Below, piece after piece: positions 1,494 to 41,036 of a stretch of DNA of 41,943 bases. Where the stretch lies: positions 1 to 41,943 of the IMG/VR virus record IMGVR_UViG_3300030328_000932, one strand, 5' to 3'. Origin of the DNA: a virus. Numbering within the stretch: position 1 is the first letter of the stretch; each line of letters starts with the position of its first letter. The notes under the pieces were generated by a model, which was not told where the DNA came from, did no database searches, and saw nothing but the letters and a program-made list of their open reading frames with translations. Both the position numbers and the translations under genes were made by a program.

Positions 1494-2249
1494 TTGGCAC
1501 TAAGTCGCACAATTAAAGGGGTTAAGCATTACGCTTACGAATCAGAACTAGAGTTTCGTACCGCACATCCTAACACACCTCTGATTACAGACTGGAAGAA
1601 AGCAGAGGAGGGGGACTGGTGTCTTGCAGACGATGGCAAGATAGTTCAAATACTAAAGAAAGGTTGTTTCGTAGATTCCAAAAAAAGAGATAACGATTAT
1701 ATTAGAACAATTATTGGTATGTTTAATCACAGAGGTAGAGGTTCTTTTGCAGGTACGGTAAAAGATGAGATATACAGATTTACGAAGAAATCAGACTATC
1801 AAATTAAAACAGGTGGGTATCTTACAGATGCAAAAAGAAACTTTGCTAAGTATATTGCACATGGAATGGAGCCTACAGAAGCATATCAAAAAGCATTTCC
1901 AACTACAAACAGTTTAGAGTATGCAGAAAGAAAGTCAACACTACTACTTAAAAACAAAACAGTGAGGCAAGCAGTGGATAAAGAAATAGAAAACTTAATG
2001 TCAGAGGTAGGTATTACAAAAAGATACTTATTGGAAAGCACTAAAGATGTTGTAGACAAAGCAGATGCAAAAGACAATGATAAGCTTAGAGCCTTGGAGA
2101 CACTGATGAAGATATCTGGTTTGTTATCTACAGAAAAGAAAGTAGACTCTGTAGCACTGATACAAGAGTTTTCTGGGTTTAGCAGAGATAAGCTCAAAGC
2201 ATTTGAACAGGGTATATTACCAGAAACAAAAAAAGAAATTAGTGGATAA
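1494..2249 (+). CDS. terS: terminase small subunit
   Basis: Predicted 251-aa DNA-recognition subunit of the packaging motor, directly upstream of the large subunit block. The middle has the small-terminase pattern of a helical segment, GYLTDAKRNFAKYIAHGMEP then TEAYQKAFP, like the helix-turn-helix NA.RCKAFV.EY..G...TEA..RAG of this family. A long helical, lysine/glutamate-rich oligomerisation region follows. The N-terminal 70 residues (KHYAYESELEFRTAHPNTPL) form a separate small domain. The start is TTG immediately after the upstream TAG; the next in-frame ATG is about 75 codons later and would remove the N-terminal domain. A GAGGA about 10 nt upstream can serve as ribosome binding site. The C-terminus (LPETKKEISG) is echoed again at 2596-2631. 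Confidence 0.8.
   Translation: MALSRTIKGVKHYAYESELEFRTAHPNTPLITDWKKAEEGDWCLADDGKIVQILKKGCFVDSKKRDNDYIRTIIGMFNHRGRGSFAGTVKDEIYRFTKKSDYQIKTGGYLTDAKRNFAKYIAHGMEPTEAYQKAFPTTNSLEYAERKSTLLLKNKTVRQAVDKEIENLMSEVGITKRYLLESTKDVVDKADAKDNDKLRALETLMKISGLLSTEKKVDSVALIQEFSGFSRDKLKAFEQGILPETKKEISG
2214..2230 (+). repeat. direct repeat flanking a small gene (copy 1)
   Basis: ATATTACCAGAAACAAA at the 3' end of the terminase small subunit recurs exactly at 2596-2612, and the following bases also encode a similar tail (LPETKK...). The gene at 2242-2589 lies between the copies, which suggests insertion or duplication at the end of terS. Confidence 0.6.
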
Positions 2250-2589
2250 TAAAAAATTTTTAGATTGGTGGGAGGTTGCAGTTGACATGCATAATTATGC
2301 ACCTAATCCTAACGACCCTTTGCATTATTATGACTATAAATCTGCATTTGAATCTGGACATCCAGTTCCTGAAAGTGGAGAGCATTGGAACTCTAAATTT
2401 AAAAGCGACTTACATCCCAATAGATTTGTAAAAGGAAAAGACCCTAGTGTAAACAGACCAGAATTAGAATGGTGGGATACTAAATATCAAAAAGCCGCTA
2501 CAAGTGCTGATGTTATAAAAGCTGACTCTCTTAGGCAGGAGTTTGAAAAAACTATCTATGGAAGGGTAGTGACAGGTATAAGAAAATGA
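2242..2589 (+). CDS. conserved small phage protein next to terminase, about 115 aa
   Basis: The sequence KKFLDWWEVAVDMHNYAPNP, then HYYDYKSAFESG and FKSDLHPNRFVKG, is of a type I recall beside portal or terminase genes in many phages. It is rich in aromatic residues, with no known enzymatic motif; function unknown. The open frame begins at a TTG at 2203, but the GTG at 2242 is the better start. It overlaps the terS stop by only 8 bases, and the residues before it only reproduce the terS 3' end in another frame. The gene lies between two copies of a 17-bp repeat. Confidence 0.65.
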   Translation: MDNKKFLDWWEVAVDMHNYAPNPNDPLHYYDYKSAFESGHPVPESGEHWNSKFKSDLHPNRFVKGKDPSVNRPELEWWDTKYQKAATSADVIKADSLRQEFEKTIYGRVVTGIRK

Positions 2590-6516: not shown

Positions 6517-8547
6517 ATGGAACAAGACCCAAGAGCATTACAAAATGATGATTTATATAGGCAATGGCGTGACTCACGATCTGAATGGGACACGGAAGCT
6601 CGTAAGGACATTGATTTCTATCTTGGTAATCATTTTAGTCAGGATGAATCTGACGACCTAGCATCTAGAAACCAAGCGGATATACCTATGGATCGTGTAT
6701 CTGCCGCAATAGAAAAATTTAAAGCAGTACTTACATCAAGGCCTCCTGCATTTACAATAACTCCTAGAGAAGATTCCGATGTGCAAGTTGCTACATTGTG
6801 GAGAACGGTGATGGGTTACGTATGGCAAAAGTCCGATGGTGATTGGCAAATGAAACAAGCGATACAAGACTATGCCACAACAGGTATGGGCTACTTGTAT
6901 GCTTACATAGATAGAGAATCAGATTTTGGTAGAGGTGACGTTAAGTTCACTTATGTTGACCCGTTCAGAGTTTATGCTTCTCCTAGCTCTCGTGATCGTT
7001 GGTTTAGCGATTCAGATGGTATCATCCTTTCCACCATCCTTACAGGTGAGCAGGCCGTTAACCTCTACCCAGAATTAGGAGATAGAATTGATCCGGAAAC
7101 GGGCGAAGAGATACTGGGTTTAATAAACGATATATCTGGATTTACGTATGATGAAGAAGATTATCCTTCCTCTCAAAACAAAAACTCTATGAATGTATTT
7201 ACTCCAGCAGAGGTAAAGGACAAAGATTATTATCAGGTAAAAAAGTATCAAGTACTAGAAAGATTTTATAAAATAAAAGTTCCTTATTATCGTATCATAG
7301 ATATGAAAAGCCAAGAAGAAAGTATTCTTTCTCAAGAAGAATATGCTCAGTTTGTATCGGAAAATTCAGAGGCTTTTGATATTGGAGCTTTTACAGCAAT
7401 AGAAGTTTTACAAACTCGTGTAAAAGTATGTGCATCAATGGGTGAGGTTGTGCTATATGAACAGATATTAAATACCGATGAGTATCCTATTATACCCCTT
7501 CCAAATATCTGGACAGGCACTCCTTATCCCAAGTCAGACGTATCTAGAGCAAGGCCTATGCAAAGACTGCTTAATAAGTTGTGGTCATTGGCATTGTCTC
7601 ATGCACAAGCATCAGCGGGTTTAAAATTGTTAGTACCTTTGGGTAGTGTGGACGATATAGATCAGCTAGAAAAAGACTGGGCAAATCCAAATGCCGTTAT
7701 TGAAGTCGATTCATCCCAAGGTGAGCCGCACTACCCAGCTCCTCAACCTTTAGCTGGAGAGTTTTATAGATTAATACAACAGTCAGAGTTTTACATAGAT
7801 TTTATATTTGGACTTCCGGAAATGATGCATGGTTTTGCAGAAAAAGCCCCTGAGACAATGAGGGCTACAGAAAGAATGATTGCACTGGGAAGTGAAAGAC
7901 CAAAGTCTAAACTTAGAGATATAGAGTTTAGTATTAACAAGTTAGGCAAGGTTCTGTACAATCTGTCTAAGGGTCACTATACCTACAAAAAGATTTTTCG
8001 TTTAGCACAGCCAAATAACAATATAACTGAAGTTATGGCAAATTTTTATACAGATGTTTCCGGAGCTGTGTTAGATTTAAAGAAGGAAAAGCATGCGTTA
8101 GATCAGCATGACATAAGAATTGAACCGGGTTCTACAATGCCTTCTAGTAAATATGCAGAACTTGCAGTGTATTTAGAGGCTTTTCAAATGGGTATTGTAG
8201 ATAGGTACGAAGTATTAAAGAAAAATCCTGAATTGTTTGATAAGGAAGGAATTATGCGTAGAACAGAAGAGAAGCAGTTATTACAGCAACAAGTTCAGGC
8301 AATGCAGGATCAGATAAAGAATTTGCAGGGTGACTTGCAAACCGCACAACGAGAGTCTGTTAGCGATAGAAAAAGAGTCGAGGTTGAAAAGTTTAAATCT
8401 AGGCTATCTGAAGTTTCTTCAGAATCTAAAGCGGACAGAAGAGTGCAACGTAGTAAACTAGAAAACGAGGTGAAGCTAGAGGTGGAGAAATTGGCTAGTA
8501 ATCTGAAAGATGTTCAGAGAAAAGTCAGTTCTACTCCTGAAGCCTAG
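6517..8547 (+). CDS. portal protein (P22-like)
   Basis: 676-aa portal, the dodecameric DNA gate at one head vertex. It starts MEQDPRALQNDDLYRQWRDS, then DIDFYLGNHFSQDE and ADIPMDRVSAAIEKFKAVLT. It has the typical VKFTYVDPFRVYASPSSRDR segment, a clip/wing region around YPIIPLPNIWTGTPYPKSDV, and a crown-side region FGLPEMMHGFAEKAPETMRA then ERMIALGSERPKSKLRDIE. The last 90 residues form a long glutamine/lysine coiled coil (about 585-670), consistent with a barrel or crown extension. The size fits P22-type portals. It is upstream of scaffold and capsid, the usual order. Confidence 0.88.
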   Translation: MEQDPRALQNDDLYRQWRDSRSEWDTEARKDIDFYLGNHFSQDESDDLASRNQADIPMDRVSAAIEKFKAVLTSRPPAFTITPREDSDVQVATLWRTVMGYVWQKSDGDWQMKQAIQDYATTGMGYLYAYIDRESDFGRGDVKFTYVDPFRVYASPSSRDRWFSDSDGIILSTILTGEQAVNLYPELGDRIDPETGEEILGLINDISGFTYDEEDYPSSQNKNSMNVFTPAEVKDKDYYQVKKYQVLERFYKIKVPYYRIIDMKSQEESILSQEEYAQFVSENSEAFDIGAFTAIEVLQTRVKVCASMGEVVLYEQILNTDEYPIIPLPNIWTGTPYPKSDVSRARPMQRLLNKLWSLALSHAQASAGLKLLVPLGSVDDIDQLEKDWANPNAVIEVDSSQGEPHYPAPQPLAGEFYRLIQQSEFYIDFIFGLPEMMHGFAEKAPETMRATERMIALGSERPKSKLRDIEFSINKLGKVLYNLSKGHYTYKKIFRLAQPNNNITEVMANFYTDVSGAVLDLKKEKHALDQHDIRIEPGSTMPSSKYAELAVYLEAFQMGIVDRYEVLKKNPELFDKEGIMRRTEEKQLLQQQVQAMQDQIKNLQGDLQTAQRESVSDRKRVEVEKFKSRLSEVSSESKADRRVQRSKLENEVKLEVEKLASNLKDVQRKVSSTPEA

Positions 8548-8566: not shown

Positions 8567-9352
8567 ATGTCTACAACAGAACAACAGGAAGTAAATGTCC
8601 AAAACGATCAAGTCGTAACTAATGAGGCTTTCGTGGAAGATATCGTAAATCAGCAAGCTGGGCCTGAGAGTCCAGAGCAAATTCAAGAACCAGTACAAGA
8701 ACCAGCTACTTCAATGGATTATGAAGCTGAGGCTAAGAAGTTCCAATCTATGTATGATCGGTCACAAGCTGAAAATGCAAGATTACAACAAGGAGCACAA
8801 ATACTTCAGTTATTGGAGCAGAGACCTGACTTGGTGCAGGCACTTGAAAGCGGTATAGCTCAACCACAAACTCAACAGCAAAACGAACCTAGTGTCGGGA
8901 AGGATGATTTTAATCCTTGGGATGCTTTCACAGATGAGAACTCTGAGTCGGGACGATATGTAAACAATAAGATAGAATCGTTAGTGAATCAGAGATTGAC
9001 TTCTGCGTTATCCCAACAACAGCAACAGATACAAGCTGAGATGCAAATGCAAAATACCGTAAATGAATTAAGAGGAACGTATAAGATGTCCGATGGCGAC
9101 ATTCAAGAGTTCTTGCAGTTCACTACGAAACCAAAAGAGCAAGTAGGTTTAAATAATCTAGTAAAGCTCTGGCAGATGCAAAACGGTCAATCCGTTGCTA
9201 ACAACGATACAATGGAAGCGGTAAATGCGGCAAAACAAGCTCCTAGAACTGCTGGCGTTCTTCAAGGTCAACCTCAAACATCACAAAAAAATGATACTGA
9301 TAAGATTTTTGATGCCGTCATGGGCAATAGTGGCTCTTTGCGATTACCGTGA
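8567..9352 (+). CDS. scaffolding protein
   Basis: 261-aa acidic, glutamine-rich protein directly upstream of the major capsid gene. It has a disordered N-terminus rich in Q, E and P, then a coiled coil (YEAEAKKFQSMYDRSQAENA, about 50-75), then LLEQRPDLVQALESG. The C-terminal end is short and basic-poor. This composition and position are typical of phage scaffolds, which template prohead assembly and then leave. A good ribosome binding site (AAGGAG) lies 8 nt before the ATG. Confidence 0.8.
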   Translation: MSTTEQQEVNVQNDQVVTNEAFVEDIVNQQAGPESPEQIQEPVQEPATSMDYEAEAKKFQSMYDRSQAENARLQQGAQILQLLEQRPDLVQALESGIAQPQTQQQNEPSVGKDDFNPWDAFTDENSESGRYVNNKIESLVNQRLTSALSQQQQQIQAEMQMQNTVNELRGTYKMSDGDIQEFLQFTTKPKEQVGLNNLVKLWQMQNGQSVANNDTMEAVNAAKQAPRTAGVLQGQPQTSQKNDTDKIFDAVMGNSGSLRLP

Positions 9353-9387: not shown

Positions 9388-10770
9388 ATGGCAATATCAT
9401 ACAATACTGGTACTTTAAAGTCCAGTGATATCACAGCTTCTACTTCCTCTGCTGGTGTAGGTCAGGCTCCTGATAGGAGACGGATATTTAATTTTGGAGA
9501 CAGGGTAGCAGAATTGGCCCCTGAAGAATCTCCATTCTTCGTGTATCTTTCTCAAGTAGCCAAAGCACCTACCGATGATCCAGTATTTCGTTACTTGGAA
9601 AATCGTAATAAAATCAACTTTACTGACCGTTCTCTTCTTTTGAAAGGAGCTGTTAATGGTGGTTCTGCTGTGTCCGCAGGAACGTCTTATGCGTTTACTG
9701 TTGACACTGCTGGTGGAGCCTCTGTTGACTATCTATTAAAAGGAATGGTTATCGCTGTTCAAACTGCATCTCGCACAGGTGATGTTGGAATTGGGCAAGT
9801 GGTCGTTCGTGTTGATTCAGCAGTAACACATGGTAGTAGCGAAACTTCATTCACAGGTAAGATTATTGATGTCTCGAACGCAAATGTTTCTGGATATAAT
9901 GTTCTTGCTGATAATGATGCGGCTCAGATAATCGGTACTTCCTTCGAGGAAGGTTCTGGTTCTCCTGACGTTTTCTCAACAGAGCTTGAAGATAATTATG
10001 GGTATACCCAGATTTTTAAGACAGCCGCTGAGATGACAAACACAGCGTATGCAACTCGCTATCGTGGGTATGCAGACGAGTGGAGTAGACTATGGGCTGA
10101 CAAACTACGTGAGCATAAAATTGACATTGAAAGAGCTATGCTCTTTGGTCAAAAAGCTCGTCAAGGTGGCATTCAATATTCTGAAGGAATTGTAGGTCAC
10201 ATCCTTAAAAATGTAAATCCAACTGTAAACGATGATGATTTTAGCTATAGCTCTGGTAGCTCGTACTACCGAAGTGTTGCACAGGCAGAAATGACTTACG
10301 ATAGATTACTTAGTGATCTTGAAGTAATCTTTGATCCTGCTCGTGGTGGTGCTTCTGACAAGCTAGTCTTGTGTTCCTTACCAGTGATTACGTTTTTTAA
10401 CAAGTTAGGCGATGGAAAATTCTTAGATGCTTCTATGGGTCATTCTGCTAATAATTACAGAATGGACATGACAACTAGGAATGGTGCTTTCGGTCACTCC
10501 GTAATGGTAATTGATACTATTCACGGAACACTTAACCTTGTTAAAGAGCCACTTTTCAGAGGAATTGCGGCTGGGTATATGCTAATGGCTGACATGAGTC
10601 AAGTTTCTTATCGTCCTTTGATTGGAAATGGAATTAACCGTGATACACAGGTTATGACCAATGTTCAAGGTGCTGATGAGGATTTGAGAAAAGACATGAT
10701 TCTAACCGAAGCTGGTTTAGAAGTAAGTCTTTCTGAGTCTCATGCTTTGTTTAACTTAGAACACAATTAA
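9388..10770 (+). CDS. major capsid protein (HK97 fold, SU10-like)
   Basis: 460-aa shell protein. It begins MAISYNTGTLKSSDITASTS and contains GDRVAELAPEESPFFVYLSQ, with an inserted beta-rich domain around 85-180. A segment with YTQIFKTAAEMTNTAYATRY and KLREHKIDIERAMLFGQKAR matches the spine-helix region of SU10-type major capsid proteins, and the C-terminal part contains MVIDTIHGTLNLVKEPLFRG. The length is usual. Scaffold precedes it and a decoration candidate follows. AAGAGG before the ATG is a good ribosome binding site for a highly expressed gene. Confidence 0.88.
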   Translation: MAISYNTGTLKSSDITASTSSAGVGQAPDRRRIFNFGDRVAELAPEESPFFVYLSQVAKAPTDDPVFRYLENRNKINFTDRSLLLKGAVNGGSAVSAGTSYAFTVDTAGGASVDYLLKGMVIAVQTASRTGDVGIGQVVVRVDSAVTHGSSETSFTGKIIDVSNANVSGYNVLADNDAAQIIGTSFEEGSGSPDVFSTELEDNYGYTQIFKTAAEMTNTAYATRYRGYADEWSRLWADKLREHKIDIERAMLFGQKARQGGIQYSEGIVGHILKNVNPTVNDDDFSYSSGSSYYRSVAQAEMTYDRLLSDLEVIFDPARGGASDKLVLCSLPVITFFNKLGDGKFLDASMGHSANNYRMDMTTRNGAFGHSVMVIDTIHGTLNLVKEPLFRGIAAGYMLMADMSQVSYRPLIGNGINRDTQVMTNVQGADEDLRKDMILTEAGLEVSLSESHALFNLEHN

Positions 10771-38735: not shown

Positions 38736-38764
38736 ATGTAACTACACACTTAATTAAAAGTTCC
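38736..38764 (-). promoter_or_regulatory. leftward promoter cassette 5
   Basis: Complement: TTGGAACTT (GGAACTT at 38764-38758), 16 bp, TTACAT (38741-38736), the weakest -10 of the set. It begins right after the stop of the gene at 38773-39267 and precedes 38491-38709. The upstream words TTAAAATAAATTGGAACTT are identical to those of cassette 4. Confidence 0.6.
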
Positions 38765-39268: not shown

Positions 39269-39481
39269 TTATTTGCTCCCTTTTTTACATTTTTTAATAA
39301 ATTCATTTTCATTGATAGTACCACAAACTAAACAAACGCTTTCCCAAATTGGACTAATCCATTCACATGGCTCACAATAGTCATAAAAATTATATTTCAA
39401 TTCTCCTCGCTCAACAGCTTTTAAAACTGCAACTTGTCCATGCTTTTCATATATTTTATATGCCTTTTCATAATTGTCCAT
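39269..39481 (-). CDS. small zinc-knuckle protein, 70 aa
   Basis: MDNYEKAYKIYEKHGQVAVL then a YDYCEPCEW knuckle (C36/C39) and VCLVCGTINEN (C49/C52). Helical N-terminus, zinc ribbon C-terminus. Its ATG shares a base with the previous stop. Function unknown. Confidence 0.65.
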   Translation of the reverse strand: MDNYEKAYKIYEKHGQVAVLKAVERGELKYNFYDYCEPCEWISPIWESVCLVCGTINENEFIKKCKKGSK

Positions 39482-39780
39482 TACTCTTCCTCCTCATCAT
39501 GTATCTCATCCCACAAATGTTCAGCTACCTCATAGAAATTGACCTCTTTTATAGAACTATTTACGATGTCGTTAATAAACCCATGTGTATATTCATACGA
39601 ACTCAACACATCATCAGCCATATCCTCTGCCCACTCTTTAAGGTCTTTAGATAACTCATACTTATTTATAGAATCCTTTGTGAGTTGTAGGGCGTGTCTA
39701 TAATCTCCCTCTGTGTTTGTGATCCACAAATTAAAGTTCCAAGTTTCATAATTTGTCCATCCGTTGTATTTATCACTCAT
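39481..39780 (-). CDS. phage protein with NGWTNYETW motif, 99 aa
   Basis: MSDKYNGWTNYETWNFNLWI carries the NGWTNYETW motif, a well-known phage and plasmid miniprotein family of unknown role, followed by a helical, acidic C-terminus (HLWDEIHDEEEE). AAGGAG precedes the ATG. First gene downstream of promoter cassette 6. Such proteins are often early genes; function not established. Confidence 0.7.
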   Translation of the reverse strand: MSDKYNGWTNYETWNFNLWITNTEGDYRHALQLTKDSINKYELSKDLKEWAEDMADDVLSSYEYTHGFINDIVNSSIKEVNFYEVAEHLWDEIHDEEEE

Positions 39781-39813
39781 TGTATTACTGCTCCTTTTAT
39801 TGTTTGTTTACTT

Positions 39814-39842
39814 ATTATACTACACTTTTAAAATAAAGTTCC
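39814..39842 (-). promoter_or_regulatory. leftward promoter cassette 6
   Basis: Complement: TTTGGAACTT (GGAACTT at 39842-39836), 16 bp, TATAAT (39819-39814), a consensus -10. It lies 8 bp downstream of the 3' end of the tRNA-like RNA and drives the genes at 39780-38773. Confidence 0.75.
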
Positions 39843-39850
39843 AAATTTGT

Positions 39851-40019
39851 GAGCCGAGGAGGAGTCGAACCTCCGATTATTATTCTACCCTTTTACCCAT
39901 TTTTAAGAGGGGCAACAAGGCTCTATTCCTTACGCTCTGTCCAATCTTAAATTGGCACACTCTACTTCTAGAGTCTTTCACACATTTCCATAGATTTACT
40001 TTTCACCTTGTATCGGCTC
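39851..40019 (-). ncRNA. tRNA-like structured RNA, about 170 nt
   Basis: No protein gene lies between promoter cassettes 7 and 6; the unit instead has tRNA-like ends. The 5' end GAGCCGA (40019-40013) pairs perfectly with TCGGCTC (39857-39851), and the 3' part is a canonical T-arm GGAGG-TTCGACT-CCTCC (39874-39858) abutting that stem, with discriminator A at 39850 and no encoded CCA. Between them are ACAAGG (40011-40006) pairing with CCTTGT (39920-39915), a hairpin ACTCTA-GAAG-TAGAGT, and another, CCAAT-TTAAG-ATTGG. No D-arm and no normal anticodon arm can be drawn. Candidates are a divergent tmRNA-like RNA, a tRNA with an insertion, or a new tRNA mimic. Confidence 0.6.
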
Positions 40020-40027
40020 TATTACTT

Positions 40028-40056
40028 ATTATACTACATTATTTTTTAAAAGTTCC
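40028..40056 (-). promoter_or_regulatory. leftward promoter cassette 7
   Basis: Complement: GGGAACTTTT (GGAACTT at 40056-40050), 16 bp, TATAAT (40033-40028). Transcription would start within a few bases of the tRNA-like RNA's 5' end (40019). It is placed right after the stop of the gene at 40060-40239. Confidence 0.75.
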
Positions 40057-40059
40057 CAT

Positions 40060-40239
40060 TTATTTTTTATTTTTAAATTCTATGGTGTATTCTTCTACAC
40101 CTTCCTCCAATAATTTTACTACTTTCTTTGCAAAAATATCTGTAAAGCTACCGTATGAATCACCCATTGCTTTAGCAATCAATGAGGTTTTCAACCTTCT
40201 ATATACTTTGTTATCAATATGTAATTTTATAGTTTTCAT
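40060..40239 (-). CDS. small ribbon-helix-helix-like protein, 59 aa
   Basis: MKTIKLHIDNKVYRRLKTSL then a helix and KKVVKLLEEGVEEYTIEFKN. A short N-terminal strand followed by two helices is the layout of Arc/MetJ-type ribbon-helix-helix DNA-binding proteins. AGGAG precedes ATG 40239, which is chosen over a longer frame. It is a candidate regulator of the promoter cassettes, an inference from its presence only. Confidence 0.5.
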   Translation of the reverse strand: MKTIKLHIDNKVYRRLKTSLIAKAMGDSYGSFTDIFAKKVVKLLEEGVEEYTIEFKNKK

Positions 40240-40288
40240 ATTTTCTCCTAAAGGGGATGCATTACACACCCCCTTTAATTTCTGTAAG

Positions 40289-40510
40289 TTAGTTTGTTTT
40301 CTGTACTTCGTATCCGTACTCAGAACCCACATAATTTATGTGTTTTGATGTTGTTACAGACCACCACCCAAGAGGTTTTATAGTTCTTTTTATGTGGTCA
40401 ATCTCTGCAACCTTTGTGTCATAACTCCATATATTATGGTAATCAACTTTTAGATTTTGTTTGTATTTGTCTAGTGCTGTTCTTGTTGTTGCTGTTTGTG
40501 TTGTGTACAT
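40289..40510 (-). CDS. small hypothetical protein, 73 aa
   Basis: MYTTQTATTRTALDKYKQNL then a beta-rich middle (IKPLGWWSVTTSKHINYVGS). GGAG precedes the ATG; promoter cassette 8 lies just upstream. No family recognised. Confidence 0.6.
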   Translation of the reverse strand: MYTTQTATTRTALDKYKQNLKVDYHNIWSYDTKVAEIDHIKRTIKPLGWWSVTTSKHINYVGSEYGYEVQKTN

Positions 40511-40764: not shown

Positions 40765-40910
40765 AAAATAATTAAAATAAATTAAATCTTTTTTTGGGGG
40801 GTTGTGTGTGGGGGTTGTGGTTTATTAATTGGCTTATATAATATAATATAAATAAGGGAAGTAATTAATTTATATATATACCCACATATTACAGAACTTA
40901 GGCGGATTAC

Positions 40911-41004
40911 CTACCTACGTGCACACTATATAATAAAAATAAACTACCCACGTGCACAAAGTTATAAAAAATCTACCAACGTGCACAAACTACCTACGTG
41001 CACA
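40911..41004. repeat. four iteron-like 15-bp repeats
   Basis: CTACCTACGTGCACA (40911-40925), CTACCCACGTGCACA (40944-40958), CTACCAACGTGCACA (40973-40987) and CTACCTACGTGCACA (40990-41004), all in the same orientation. They differ only at position six. Each contains the palindrome GTGCAC. Unequal spacings (33, 29 and 17 bp) in an AT-rich region suit iteron or regulator binding sites rather than a coding repeat. Confidence 0.8.
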
Positions 41005-41036
41005 GAAATATAAAAAAATATAAAAATAAAAAAATT

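Follow-up and report, generated by a model that had tools for sequence, protein, structure and literature searches.

The question raised by the right end of this phage genome is what kind of molecule is encoded between two promoter-like repeats, where no protein gene had been recognized and a first-pass annotation had placed an RNA with tRNA-like ends that is not a normal tRNA. The window analyzed here is the whole 41,943-base stretch of an uncultivated virus from IMG/VR; its source record carries phage terminase, portal, and capsid genes, and its right end is a leftward block of small genes. The range outlined in the annotation, 39814 to 40056, does contain an RNA gene, but the gene itself is shorter (∼169 nt) and occupies minus-strand positions 40019 to 39851, as delimited by its fold, its relatives, and a covariance model.

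Read from the 5' end, the RNA runs GAGCCGA-UA-CAAGGU-GAAAAGUAAA-UCUAU-GGAAAUGUG, and its 3' part reads AUAGA-G-CCUUG-(variable arm)-GG...AAUC-GGAGG-UUCGACU-CCUCC-UCGGCUC-A-C. All elements lie on the minus strand. The 5' strand of the acceptor stem, GAGCCGA (40013 to 40019), pairs with the 3' strand UCGGCUC (39851 to 39857), which is followed by A73 and C74. The linker UA (40011 to 40012) comprises 2 nt, pyrimidine-purine, throughout the family, as do Y8 and R9 in tRNA. The 5' strand of P2, CAAGGU (40005 to 40010), stands at the position of the D-stem and pairs with 39916 to 39921; its pairs vary across the family as CAAGG/CCUUG, UAAGG/CCUUA, and CCAGG/CCUGG. A near-invariant, purine-rich bulge of 10 nt, GAAAAGUAAA (39995 to 40004), with variants limited to GAGAAG, GAACAG, and one extra A, leads to the 5' strand of P3, UCUAU (39990 to 39994). 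This strand pairs with 39922 to 39926, and one of its C-G pairs is replaced by U-G in 8 of 26 sequences. An inner stem, ACAAGG/CCTTGT, had been annotated and is present, but it was incompletely described, as the paired region continues into a P2-P3 core interrupted by the 10-nt bulge. On the 3' side of this P3 strand lies the conserved block GGNAAUGUG (39981 to 39989), in which one base varies (A, U, or C) and the others are near-invariant.

The middle of the molecule (39927 to 39980) is variable. In the window, it forms the two interior hairpins that the annotation had noticed, ACTCTA-GAAG-TAGAGT at 39974 to 39959 and CCAAT-TTAAG-ATTGG at 39955 to 39941, but a single hairpin takes their place in some relatives, among them the short members; the length of this segment ranges from 26 to 55 nt across the family, followed by AAUAGAGCC. 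The 3' strands of P3 and P2, AUAGA-G-CCUUG (39916 to 39926), come next, with AUAGAGCCU invariant in the 26 sequences. At the place of an anticodon arm lies a variable arm, UUGCCC-CUCUUAAAAAU-GGGUAA in the window (39893 to 39915), which shows compensatory stem changes in some members, a loop of 5 to 11 nt with varying sequence, and a length of ∼100 nt in the relative L147. A GG-containing stretch ending in AAUC (39875 to 39892) precedes the T-stem; its GG is kept where the T-loop is standard, and its AAU[U/C] is invariant. The T-arm GGAGG-UUCGACU-CCUCC (39858 to 39874) directly abuts the 3' strand of the acceptor stem, as had been annotated, and its loop reads UUCRA in 25 of 26 sequences. The shell, consisting of the acceptor stem, the T-arm, and the GG stretch, is conserved in shape and not in sequence, and the P2-P3 core at the place of the D-arm is nearly identical in sequence from member to member. 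The core block AGGUGAAAAGUAAAUYUAUGGNAAUGU together with AUAGAGCCU is near-invariant among unrelated phages, and ∼37 core bases hardly change at all.

Relatives of this RNA occur in ∼35 viral contigs, very different phages included, and provide 27 distinct full sequences. The sequences of L014 and L118 end within the RNA, and the full record of L118/L146 contains it complete and internal to the contig. Close relatives were reached through the DUF932 gene, and divergent ones were reached with a scan for the core AAGTAAATCTATGGNAATG and then with gapped scans. Within the window's clade, the RNAs show 96 to 98% identity, compared to 62 to 66% for the DUF932 protein. The family spans 138 to 228 nt. 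In the short members L019, L138, L141, and L142, one hairpin replaces the two inner hairpins, a difference of 26 nt that would break any reading frame there. The acceptor 5' strands of other members read GCCCAAG, GCCCUAG, GUGCCGG, GGGCAGA, GGACAGA, GCGUAGA, GCAUAGA, GGAUAGA, GGAAAGU, and CUUCACU; wherever the sequence suffices, the 27 distinct sequences place a 7-bp acceptor stem exactly 2 bases 5' of P2 and a T-stem directly against the acceptor 3' strand.

Searches beyond these contigs return no known family. Rfam 15 gives nothing above the gathering threshold for the RNA or for the window, and permissive Rfam searches match nothing credibly except the tRNA/T-arm part. When the RNA and its core are compared by blastn with GenBank phage and plasmid sequences, only ordinary tRNA T-arms or noise come up, and model R1, applied to GenBank phages with related helicase, GroEL, and carbamoyltransferase genes (huge phages included), finds only weak, tRNA-sized matches. 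Among prokaryotic genomes, a first exact pattern finds nothing, and an exact gapped pattern, which would miss diverged copies, finds no relative in ∼85,000 of them. The nine matches to this second pattern have neither a T-arm nor an acceptor and are due to chance, as are most matches to the exact 14-mer GAGCCGATACAAGG. A literature search, thin on subscription papers, found no description of this RNA.

Shuffle controls and, decisively, covariation in relatives support the fold. A perfect T-arm (TTCRANY loop) whose 7 following bases are fully paired 40 to 240 nt upstream occurs at one place in the window, counting either strand; 40 dinucleotide shuffles yield no such place. The RNA fold is stabler than those of shuffles, with a z-score of −2.8. 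The covariation alignment comprises 26 sequences and 23 shell and core pairs, i.e., 598 pair cells. Standard pairs fill all 598 cells (100%), compared to 83% in shuffles, and 92 cells carry two-sided changes; all covariation measures exceed those of all 500 shuffles, and sliding the partners by 1 to 3 columns lowers the pairing to 40 to 53%. The annotated pairing of GAGCCGA (40019 to 40013) with TCGGCTC (39857 to 39851) forms with all seven pairs in 26 of 26 sequences. Two-sided compensatory changes are found in all seven acceptor pairs, in four of the five T-stem pairs, and in two P2 pairs; the stem pairs are thus kept in the very way whose absence the annotation had named as grounds for dismissing the RNA. 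The inner part of P2 and most of P3 are without variation and therefore silent for covariation. Because both hardly vary, their pairing is supported by one-sided changes and by the fold, and P2 and P3 are not formed in the minimum-energy fold of L157. G-U rather than A-C pairs are seen on the minus strand, which supports the strand assignment. A covariance model trained on 11 sequences, none of them from the window's clade, scores the window at 106 bits (E value of ∼1e-27), compared to <30 bits for ordinary tRNAs with the same model. Model R1 is silent on control loci, which included chance loci from the 14-mer scan, except for tRNAs and a few matches of <15 bits. This is almost certainly a real structured RNA family.

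The resemblance to tRNA extends to the 3' end. C74 is kept family-wide, with N73-C74-A/U following the acceptor stem in 27 of 27 distinct members. The ordinary tRNA genes of L170, L175, L153, and L148 nearly all show N73-C74 without the full CCA; in four related records, C74 is present in 15 of 15 such genes, and the full CCA is encoded in 1 of the 15. As C74 is common to the RNA family and to the phages' own tRNA genes, both are read as following the same 3' maturation path. In tRNA, G18 and G19 of the D-loop touch the T-loop (PMC4810234). Outside the core, the phage RNA conserves a single GG, immediately upstream of the T-arm, which makes this stretch the putative elbow partner of the T-loop. 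In one case, a relative of the 228-nt form at 10651 to 10877 of L175, both the GG and the usual T-loop sequence are gone, the loop reading GGCAGCA instead of TTCGACT, and the stems are kept; this copy is possibly decaying or altered. The acceptor and the elbow are what RNase P, RNase Z, and CCA-adding enzymes recognize (PMC4810234), and the RNA has the structural features required of an RNase P and tRNase Z substrate. Given these known specificities, maturation by tRNA enzymes is probable. Of the options annotated, the mimic recruiting tRNA enzymes is in keeping with these features, with the acceptor, the T-arm, a G18G19-like GG, and C74 all kept in very different sequences.

Canonical phage tRNAs share with the RNA the 7-bp acceptor, the 5-bp T-stem with its UUCRANY loop, Y8R9, Y48, the elbow GG, and N73-C74. 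In contrast to them, a domain of 60 to 100 nt with an invariant core replaces the D-arm, the anticodon arm is inconsistent, with the GG placed between it and the T-arm, and the molecule measures 138 to 228 nt. ARAGORN, run on the window and its relatives, calls the RNA neither a tRNA nor a tmRNA, and no D-arm plus anticodon arm with a usable anticodon was found by ARAGORN, arm comparison, or trial excision. These results bear on whether the locus is a tRNA gene interrupted at or close to its D-arm, the interruption being the conserved core, as an intron that splices itself or is removed by enzymes. The cloverleaf-like order, with the conserved core where an insert could sit, speaks for such a gene, and interior deletions let ARAGORN call a tRNA in some members. 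However, the anticodons obtained by excision disagree (Leu, Arg, Ser, Ile, stop, or none), the calls made after excision do not consistently exceed those of interior-shuffled controls, and the ARAGORN intron mode finds nothing. The GG adjoins the T-arm and does not lie in a D-loop, the anticodon-like loop varies from 5 to 11 nt, and Rfam gives neither a group I nor a group II match, which leaves an intron-containing tRNA very unlikely.

A compact or degenerate tmRNA, the other option annotated, would carry alanine on its shell and use an internal frame to tag stalled proteins. An acceptor and T-arm joined to a P2-like helix are also the layout of tmRNA (RF00023), which shares the stable, tRNA-ended design with a long helix in place of the D and anticodon arms, and the proposed frame GCC AAT TTA AGA TTG GAC AGA GCG TAA exists in the window. 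This frame is confined to members with a long middle and is missing in L019, L138, L141, and L142 as well as in the divergent members. G3:U70 occurs in 1 of 26 sequences (L152), and the 2 nt between the acceptor and P2 leave no tmRNA D-loop segment. Neither of the two checks bearing on this option calls a tmRNA: ARAGORN finds none, and the match to the Rfam tmRNA model is limited to 17 nt in the T-arm of L154, at 11.3 bits compared to a cutoff of 47. The RNA is also far shorter than tmRNA, and no pseudoknots were found in it. The tmRNA reading is thus extremely improbable.

The Y RNAs form a further group with tRNA-like parts. YrlA is a noncoding RNA with a tRNA-like module that is not known to be formed by the RNA's own ends. 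In Y RNA, the ends form a Ro60-binding stem; in the phage RNA, they form an acceptor stem beside the T-arm. A Ro60-type Y RNA is not supported: a TROVE (Ro60) gene is present in 0 of 26 phage records, the positive control having been detected (a search that covers partners encoded by the phage and to which one encoded by the host would be invisible), and there is no Rfam match. Two coding possibilities were likewise set aside. The minimal open reading frame AUG-GNA-AUG-UGN in the core has no conserved stop position. A 194-amino-acid open frame runs antisense through the RNA on the plus strand (39764 to 40348); it is argued not to be a gene because the long and short RNA forms differ by 26 nt.

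The promoter-like repeats annotated on both sides of the RNA are present. One copy of GGAACTTT-N15-TATAAT lies before the RNA (40028 to 40056, minus strand), with its spacing to the RNA kept in the clade, and the second copy (39814 to 39842, minus strand) would serve the downstream neighbor, a DUF7249-family gene outside the RNA (39481 to 39780, minus strand); 0.00 occurrences of this composite repeat are expected. The TATAAT box ends 8 bases upstream of the 5' G, which places the predicted start at or within ∼2 nt of the RNA 5' end, in agreement with the start expected by the annotation. The box GGAACTTT occurs 12 times in the window compared to 1.9 expected, 11 of these copies on the minus strand, and differs from the −35 box of sigma-70; sites of the element GGAACTTT...GTAGTATAAT include 38741 to 38764, 39814 to 39842, 40028 to 40056, and 778 to 807, among others. 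In an AT-rich intergenic region at 40908 to 41005, four iteron-like direct repeats, CTACC[T/C/A]ACGTGCACA, occur with a GTGCAC palindrome and form a possible origin or regulator site.

In L009 and L018, the same downstream region follows a single promoter copy without the RNA. In L003, with a DUF932 protein 98% identical, a different structured RNA of 66 nt (8014 to 8079) lies directly behind the promoter repeat in its place; this RNA is closed by GGCGAGG/CCTCGCC, has a z-score of −3.2, and lacks a T-arm. These empty sites and the replacement indicate an accessory cassette, and its absence in two or three relatives suggests an accessory role. In other phages, the RNA lies between genes, and the neighbors vary (GroEL, carbamoyltransferase, glutamine amidotransferase, RecA, and tRNA clusters), so no partner protein travels with it. 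L207 shows a terminator-like hairpin just upstream of the RNA, making a processed 5' end likely there.

This setting raises the alternative of cis-acting punctuation, in which the shell would only mark host-enzyme cuts in a phage transcript and the excised RNA would have no job. Cutting of transcripts at tRNA-type structures is known from organelles, and the RNA lies between genes of the same strand in several relatives. Punctuation would nevertheless leave the near-invariant core of ∼37 nt within shells of variable sequence unexplained, and in the window's clade the RNA has its own predicted promoter start at its 5' end; this alternative is unlikely. Still somewhat less likely is a decoy for tRNA-binding host proteins or tRNA-cutting defense nucleases, with the shell as the active part. 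The shell is indeed the part read by many tRNA-binding proteins (PMC4810234), and the accessory distribution would suit a decoy. The core is the most conserved part, however, not the shell or an anticodon loop, and the anticodon-like arm is not conserved.

The preferred reading, held with moderate confidence, is a new family of phage-encoded, noncoding, tRNA-like RNAs in which the shell is matured by host tRNA enzymes and the core acts in trans on a host factor. Here, the shell would fold into that half of a tRNA which comprises acceptor and elbow, and host RNase P, tRNase Z, and the CCA enzyme would trim and protect the RNA, with the CCA tail stabilizing it. Such maturation would apply both to RNAs started at their own promoter and to those inside longer phage transcripts. 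The core may then serve as an accessory infection tool, in host takeover or counter-defense, as near-identical phages can lack the RNA and no partner gene travels with it. That the core acts in trans and on the host has, at best, an even chance. A more specific version is tentative: a class of small phage RNAs whose tRNA-like shell delivers an invariant core, either a binder of an essential host target or a ribozyme, into the space of host tRNA maturation and translation.

Viral tRNA-like structures of the TYMV type and long RNAs matured by RNase P share the principle that mimicry of acceptor and elbow recruits tRNA enzymes (PMC4810234). In those cases, the mimic is part of a long RNA without sequence relation to the phage RNA. 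The shell described here, in contrast, forms the ends of a small RNA of a DNA phage, around a conserved core particular to that RNA. GOLLD and ROOL are likewise structured RNAs that phages encode, with functions yet to be assigned, and tRNA genes are often close by (PMC12286853); they are much larger and have other structures, and the phage RNA here has no Rfam match. Mimicry of tRNA for processing is thus a known device, and the core and the combination form, as far as these searches show, a new RNA class.

A second tRNA-like RNA of ∼154 nt occurs in the same phages, at 2246 to 2399 (minus strand) of L201 and 8929 to 9082 (plus strand) of L202, i.e., G001 and G015. It shows an acceptor-like GCGTAGA/TCTACGC, the T-arm GTAGG-TTCGACT-CCTAT, an unrelated core, and a weak match to both models. 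Shells of this tRNA-like kind may thus occur more widely, around different cores.

The RNA family lies outside Rfam 15 and the searched GenBank phage records and is common to phages otherwise little alike, with a conservation as tight as that of catalytic or protein-binding RNA. The alignments and the covariance model make it searchable and testable. Its core, by varying so little, points to a bacterial target that is itself widely conserved, and its shell suggests the borrowing of host tRNA-finishing enzymes for a stable viral RNA tool. If the shell works as proposed, phages exploit the enzymes of host tRNA ends for stable noncoding RNAs, and if it also delivers the core, the RNA of G001 and G015 would be a further member of a wider phage strategy of shell plus cargo.
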